Below are positions 6,812 to 7,408 of a stretch of DNA of 34,488 nucleotides, piece by piece; positions within the stretch are counted from its first letter, which is position 1; every line of letters starts with the position of its first letter. The DNA is from Nitriliruptorales bacterium. Its GTDB lineage: Bacteria > Actinomycetota > Nitriliruptoria > Euzebyales > JAHELV01. A program made the position numbers and the translations under genes. The notes under the pieces are model-generated. The model did no database searches. It was not told where the DNA came from and was given only the letters and a program-made list of their open reading frames with translations. The stretch lies in NCBI GenBank assembly GCA_024644015.1, contig JAHELV010000011.1, positions 19,962 through 54,449 of the forward strand, given 5' to 3'.

Positions 6812-7408
6812 TCACCCCGACAATGCGTCCAGGCGCGCTTCGAGATCGGCACGTGGGATCGCGCCCAGCACCCGCTCGCCGTCGCCGGTGGCGGCGTCGA
6901 GGAACACCCACGCCGGCTGCCCGACGACACCGAAGCGCTGCCACACCGCGCCCTCGACGTCGGCGATGTTGACCATGTCCTCGAGACCATGGCGTGCGAC
7001 GAACTCCTCCATCGCCGGACGCTCATCCCTGCTCGCCACGCCGATGATGTCAATCTTGTCGCTGTACTGCTGCACAACCTGTGCAACCTCGGGAGCCTCC
7101 CGATTGCACGTCCCTCACCAGGGTGCCCAGAACCACAGCGCCAGGCTGTCGCCGGCATAGTCCGCACCGTCGAGGCTGGCACCGTCGACCGTCTCGACCA
7201 CGCCGAACGGCACGATGTCCGGCGACGCTGAAGAAGCCTGGTCGTCCGACGCGCCGTCGCCGGCTGCGGGCGACGGTGCAGTCGCCCCGGTGTCACCGGA
7301 GTCGGCGCCGGCCACGTCCGCTGTGGTGCCGTCCACTGACGATCCGCACGCACCGAGGACCAAGCCGACGACAATGAGCATCACAAGTCGTCGCACACGT
7401 CGCAGCAT
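6812..7408 (-). CDS. Secreted DsbE/TlpA-like redoxin lipoprotein with in-frame UGA (probable selenocysteine)
   Basis: 198 codons when the TGA at 7117-7115 is read through. The N-terminus is a lipoprotein signal: MLRRVRR, a hydrophobic core, and lipobox LGAC (Cys21), then an Asp/Ser/Ala-rich linker. The thioredoxin fold follows with SLALWFWAPW, then UGA as codon 98, then GTCNREAPEVAQ, so the active site reads U-G-T-C where relatives such as MPT53/DsbE have WCPFC. Downstream the same frame continues without a break through IIGVASRDE, FGVVGQPAWVFLDA (cis-Pro loop) to a natural stop at 6812. A SECIS-like hairpin begins 5 nt after the UGA. I therefore call a selenoprotein acting as an extracytoplasmic thiol-disulfide oxidoreductase. 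ATG 7408 was chosen for the signal peptide; a TTG at 7438 is possible. A Cys-to-stop mutation is the alternative. Confidence 0.77.
7081..7109 (-). promoter_or_regulatory. Bacterial SECIS-like hairpin downstream of the in-frame UGA
   Basis: On the minus strand, GTGCAA (7109-7104) pairs with TTGCAC (7086-7081), and TCGGGA (7103-7098) pairs with TCCCGA (7094-7089): 12 perfect base pairs with a 3-nt apical loop GGC and a 2-nt GG bulge on the 3' side. The loop starts 17 nt after the UGA and begins with G. This meets the bacterial SECIS model as I recall it (loop 16-37 nt from UGA, small loop, G in its first two positions). SelB would bind it to deliver Sec-tRNA. Confidence 0.7.

Follow-up and report, generated by a model that had tools for sequence, protein, structure and literature searches.

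A predicted selenocysteine-containing DsbE/DsbF-like lipoprotein in a Nitriliruptorales bacterium and its relatives in the Actinomycetota

One reading frame interrupted by a single in-frame TGA

Is a TGA codon at the active site of a thioredoxin-fold lipoprotein gene read as selenocysteine (Sec), or does it mark a broken gene or another kind of readthrough? The question is raised by a locus in the window analysed here, a stretch of 34,488 nucleotides (C86:19962-54449) from the genome of a Nitriliruptorales bacterium (4.0 Mb in 161 contigs, 97% complete). A preliminary description had proposed that a single frame runs here from a signal sequence to a stop and encodes a selenoprotein. Reading and translating the window confirmed that the minus-strand frame 7408-6812 is broken solely by the TGA at 7117-7115 and is ended by the TGA stop at 6814-6812. 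The features of the gene and its product are as follows.

6812..7408, minus strand: predicted selenoprotein gene for a DsbE/DsbF-like thioredoxin-fold lipoprotein, 198 amino acids, Sec codon 98
7115..7117, minus strand: in-frame UGA, predicted to be read as selenocysteine 98; the aligned column is TGA in 21/21 sequences
7346..7357, minus strand: lipobox L18-G-A-C21, preceded by a hydrophobic signal segment; lipoprotein signal peptide predicted from the translation
7106..7108, minus strand: Cys101, second redox residue of UxxC, invariant in the 21-orthologue alignment
6914..6916, minus strand: Pro165, in the Q-P-A-W loop, corresponding to the cis-Pro of the thioredoxin fold, nearly invariant and matching the QPA of DsbF and MPT53

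The translation comprises, in order, a hydrophobic N-terminus, the lipobox (VLGAC), a linker rich in Ala, Asp and Ser, the thioredoxin-fold domain and the QPAW loop. The internal TGA lies in the context WFWAPW-TGA-GTCNREAP, where it takes the first position of U-G-T-C. At this position DsbF (WFWAPWCPTC) and MPT53 (WFWTPWCPFC) have Cys, in agreement with the earlier placement of the TGA at the first active-site Cys. The claim that the product is a lipoprotein was likewise supported, the lipobox Cys being visible in 20 of the 21 orthologues (the other one is without that part). As to the extent of the gene, the frame itself stood, while the start at ATG 7408 is unsettled: translation may begin instead at GTG 7396-7394, because this codon aligns with the GTG or ATG starts of several orthologues (VRRL...).

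The GC content by codon position was coding-like downstream of the TGA (0.76/0.44/0.83) and gave a weaker coding signal upstream of it (0.72/0.59/0.78), where the Ala/Asp/Ser-rich linker is located. Comparison of the 100 codons 3′ of the UGA with same-genus orthologues showed 26-28 synonymous and 17-24 non-synonymous differences, a pattern indicating that the sequence downstream of the TGA is under purifying selection and that the open frame did not arise by chance.

The complete Sec pathway, the conserved TGA and the selection acting downstream of it give strong support to a selenoprotein gene, and we infer that Sec is inserted, that the product is lipid-anchored and that it acts as an enzyme. 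SelA, SelD and tRNA-Sec would produce Sec-tRNA, and SelB would insert Sec at codon 98, directed by an mRNA hairpin right after the UGA. The product would be exported, anchored as a lipoprotein and folded as mycobacterial DsbE/DsbF (MPT53), with U-x-x-C replacing C-x-x-C. In disulfide exchange with envelope proteins, the selenolate would be the attacking residue and Cys101 the resolving residue. We put the probability of this explanation as a whole, that is, SelB- and hairpin-guided Sec98 in an exported DsbE/DsbF-like U-x-x-C lipoprotein and predicted oxidoreductase, at about 95%.

Family, predicted fold and redox role

The best solved relatives by sequence were Mycobacterium tuberculosis DsbF (3ios, E 3.5e-28) and MPT53/DsbE (1lu4, E 1.8e-23). 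An AlphaFold2 model computed on the 21-row alignment had mean pLDDT values of 93-98 in the ten-residue blocks across residues 71-198, and Foldseek ranked 3ios (TM by target 0.91, rmsd 1.3 Å, 40% identity) and 1lu4 (TM by target 0.89, rmsd 1.4 Å, 36% identity) ahead of ResA and CcmG. Sequence and predicted fold thus both uphold the DsbE/MPT53-type identity given in the preliminary description. The protein shares with DsbF and MPT53 the WFW[AT]PW-x-xxC motif, the thioredoxin fold, the QPA cis-Pro loop and export, but Sec replaces the first active-site Cys. The N-terminal lipobox and the Ala/Asp/Ser-rich linker are apparent further differences from DsbF/MPT53. Since the first Cys of CxxC is absent, the protein is best classed, as judged from sequence, as a Sec-form sister of actinobacterial DsbE/DsbF (MPT53) and not as a Cys-form member.

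Pfam matches were obtained to Redoxin (best), AhpC-TSA and Thioredoxin, and an NCBIfam profile search with the window's protein gave no family over its cut-off. CcmG-type DsbE belongs to the same superfamily; orthology to CcmG was rejected, TIGR00385 (DsbE/CcmG) scoring 38 bits against a curated cut-off of 123.15. Membership in NF041054, the WAxxUGC ResA-like selenoprotein, was also rejected (22.5 bits against a curated cut-off of 300). The two have in common a ResA-like fold and a Sec following a WA.. motif, but the motif here is WAPW-U-xxC.

The protein is most likely an envelope-anchored thiol-disulfide oxidoreductase acting through Sec98 and Cys101. Compatible with this, and given slightly less than an even chance, is a role as a reductant or isomerase served by a CcdA/DsbD-type membrane donor in place of one as a disulfide-forming oxidase. 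Such a role is favoured by the low redox potential of Sec and by a fold that is also near ResA and CcmG, both reductants. On the other hand, the nearest relatives, DsbF and MPT53, are regarded as disulfide-forming, and no conserved redox partner adjoins the gene, the conserved neighbour found being a phosphofructokinase gene. VKOR, the usual actinobacterial partner in oxidative folding (PMC12421883), was searched in this genome and not found; in the class it was present in 2 of the 20 TGA genomes versus 17 of the 46 others (p = 0.037, relatedness ignored), which again points to the reductant or isomerase.

The Sec pathway of the genome

Insertion of Sec at codon 98 calls on selA, selB, selD and tRNA-Sec, for which the preliminary description had suggested a search, counting their absence as a refutation, and all four are present in the genome. 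Three of them lie on the window's contig: tRNA-Sec (C86:3176-3267, 70.1 bits; SeC with anticodon TCA by ARAGORN), selA (C86:72434-73750, 471 bits) and selB (C86:75939-77780, 320.8 bits). The selD gene (C23:8681-9592, L021; 358.9 bits) has a single in-frame TGA of its own, at GAG-U-ACK, and the gene for the formate dehydrogenase alpha chain, fdhA (C26:36591-38477, L177), likewise contains a single TGA, located in its UHxP motif (U-H-A-P). Because selD, fdhA and the DsbE/DsbF-like gene each carry an in-frame TGA, at least three selenoprotein genes are predicted in this genome. An Rfam scan of the window gave no tRNA or SECIS family match. Between selA and selB (C86:72434-77780; L001, L013) lies a gene whose product, judged by eye, resembles a CLC-type chloride channel.

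It is very improbable that the UGA is read without Sec, by reassignment to Trp or Gly or by programmed readthrough. The one point in its favour is the frame being open past the UGA, and the site in homologues is Cys, not Trp or Gly. Moreover, the genome has a tRNA-Sec whose anticodon is TCA as well as the other sel genes, and the UGA in selD falls at the Sec/Cys position typical of the SelD family. TGA is also a stop here, since TGA 6814-6812 terminates the same gene. Reassignment to Trp was accordingly rejected on the Cys at the site in homologues, the gene's own TGA stop and the sel genes.

Conservation of the TGA form

The read-through protein was searched against every order-mate genome in the collection (n = 30, including its own), and each of the best 13 matches had exactly one TGA. 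A class-level search of 66 genomes of Nitriliruptoria gave 21 matches with one TGA, in 20 genomes; the weaker matches listed had no stop. The codon alignment of the class orthologues showed TGA at the Sec column in every one of the 21, and the residues invariant among them were G76, W92, W94, P96, W97, U98, C101, E104, A105, P106, G123, D128 and F136. The preliminary description had named TGC or TGT at codon 98 in sister strains, with decay downstream, as evidence against a selenoprotein; the sister strains have TGA, and the downstream sequence is under purifying selection. Either selA or tRNA-Sec was present in 20/20 TGA genomes of the class. In one of these (G011), the selA match is split into two adjacent frames (G011:C20:345521-346817), through a frameshift or an assembly error.

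A pseudogene or a sequencing or assembly error, in which a Cys codon has turned into TGA in a decaying or misread gene, would look alike in one genome after a single TGC/TGT to TGA change, and Cys orthologues do exist, but this explanation has next to no chance, being refuted by the TGA in 21 class orthologues, which occurs at the same codon in independent assemblies down to 36-46% identity, with complete or near-complete assemblies (G022, G025, G039 and G046) among its carriers, purifying selection downstream and Sec machinery present.

Sampling 396 genomes evenly from the Actinomycetota revealed 18 further TGA-bearing genomes outside the class, from six other family groups. Outside the class, selA was present in 17/18 TGA genomes versus 9/20 Cys-form genomes (Fisher p = 0.0014). 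The preliminary description had considered a Sec-containing DsbE-type lipoprotein unusual in an actinobacterium. This view did not hold, as Sec-form genes proved common among the deep-branching Actinomycetota surveyed. In a collection of named genomes, the best 80 relatives had at the site 65 TGC, 10 TGT, 3 TGA and 2 TGA with variant motifs, so that the 78 motif matches comprised 75 Cys codons (TGC/TGT) and 3 TGA. In the two variant orthologues, WAPG-U-LTC (L085:3001-3339) and WSPY-U-TTC (L086:3001-3486), the W preceding Sec is replaced. Two weak matches with one TGA each (G001:C21:47923-48189 and G010:C37:190688-191002) are possibly other thioredoxin-fold selenoproteins.

Candidate bSECIS hairpins and codon choice after the UGA

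Two candidate hairpins follow the UGA in the mRNA.

7069..7087, minus strand: candidate bSECIS hairpin B, GUUGCAC-AGGUU-GUGCAGC, conforming to the bSECIS rules, dG -8.7
7089..7103, minus strand: candidate hairpin A, UCGGGA-GGC-UCCCGA, 17 nt past the UGA, dG -7.4

The bSECIS rules were applied as quoted in PMC13188914. Hairpin B has 7 bp, an AGGUU loop located 34 nt past the UGA and a folding energy of -8.7 kcal/mol. In this genome's selD, the hairpin 31-33 nt past the UGA (GCGCAGGUUCUGCGC) has a loop resembling AGGUU; the fdhA hairpin has the loop GGUCU, 18 nt past the UGA. Hairpin B is the better SECIS candidate because it agrees with the bSECIS rules and its loop is like that of the selD hairpin. 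Hairpin A, whose energy falls slightly short of the -7.5 rule, is a candidate alternative or auxiliary to it.

The strict bSECIS rule was passed by 15/21 orthologues versus 65/448 in-frame background windows, a comparison that, like all the codon and hairpin statistics given here, is inflated by the shared ancestry of the orthologues. The six that failed were five members of family f5 and L034. The f5 Sec orthologues (L054, L055, L057, L059 and L061) are without hairpin B and may use a different hairpin as SECIS, for example ACCGUGAGGCCCCCGCGGU in L057 and L059. When hairpins A and B were taken together, 84% of cells were paired, compared with 22-55% when slid, and 21 two-sided changes were counted, compared with at most 2 when slid. 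In hairpin B, pair 36-44 alternates between A-U and G-C, and pair 33-47 between U-A and C-G.

Codon choice was also biased at the conserved residues among codons +4 to +12 past the UGA, where the mean bias relative to window coding usage was 1.03 bits versus 0.18 bits elsewhere in the gene (p = 0.014), indicating that these codons are constrained at the RNA level. Arg CGC was used in 0/20 Sec orthologues versus 16/38 Cys orthologues, and GTG at Val+10 in 0/20 versus 23/52. Conversely, Pro CCC was used in 21/21 Sec versus 26/53 Cys orthologues, and Ala GCT in 13/21 versus 11/53. The CCC bias is partly common to Cys paralogues (12/18), and the codon-choice claim therefore also rests on the Arg, Ala and Val codons.

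Measured against synonymous shuffles, the stretch past the UGA folded only slightly more stably than controls taken from within the gene (mean z -0.88 versus -0.51). This is a weak test for a SECIS, because the codons for NREAPEVAQ, being GC-rich, fold in any case; the SECIS evidence was taken from the codon-choice and pair-count tests in its place. RNAalifold gave a poor consensus for the full set of 21 (-2.95 kcal/mol), owing to the family f5 members.

Relation to known selenoproteins

Thioredoxin-fold selenoproteins with a UxxC motif are already known, since a 2026 catalogue of 119 selenoprotein families and subfamilies includes UxxC proteins of cd02966 and PF08534 (PMC13188914). The original description of the UxxC TlpA-like or 'thiol-disulfide isomerase-like' (cd02966) selenoproteins was based on 4 sequences from the Sargasso Sea (PMC1088965). 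DsbE is mentioned in neither paper, and actinobacteria are not mentioned in the review. With its thioredoxin fold and UxxC, the gene product studied here resembles the catalogued selenoproteins of cd02966 and of the 'Redoxin family' (PF08534), Redoxin being its best Pfam match. MGB1650493.1 and HEU0032618.1 represent the UxxC TlpA/redoxin proteins in the catalogue. Unlike it, those classes are broad and at the domain level, the likeness being one of domain class and motif alone. A literature search on a DsbE/DsbF-like Sec lineage or on Nitriliruptoria selenoproteins found nothing specific. The DsbE/DsbF Sec lineage is not named in PMC13188914 and is matched by no NCBIfam family.

The bacterial selenoproteome would thus gain a widespread, apparently unnamed lineage, with UGA recoding maintained across many Actinomycetota genera. 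The finding also points to genes that standard gene calling would split, ending the product at the active site, and that no NCBIfam model covers, and it raises the question of why selenium is used in an envelope disulfide enzyme of lineages in which VKOR, the usual actinobacterial partner, is mostly not found.

Evolution and gene neighbourhood

An unrooted tree of 100 proteins split 28 Sec rows from 72 Cys rows by one branch (99/98). When the tree was rooted with ResA-like paralogues, three long rows being left out, the Sec rows grouped as a single clade (88/92; recovered in 87% of bootstraps), placed either beside the Cys DsbE/DsbF family or within it. These trees fit one Cys-to-Sec conversion followed by mostly vertical descent, with moderate support for the root. 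The phosphofructokinase gene also adjoins the Sec gene in the three congeners and in two order-mates from a different family, which agrees with vertical descent. A broader scenario is put forward tentatively and considered rather unlikely in full: the Sec DsbE/DsbF proteins, of one Cys-to-Sec origin, would be a main user of the Sec pathway in deep-branching Actinomycetota beside SelD and FdhA, with an envelope disulfide role where VKOR is mostly lacking. In one genome outside the class, Cys-form and Sec-form copies are adjacent, about 280 bases apart (G208:C154:60505-61725).
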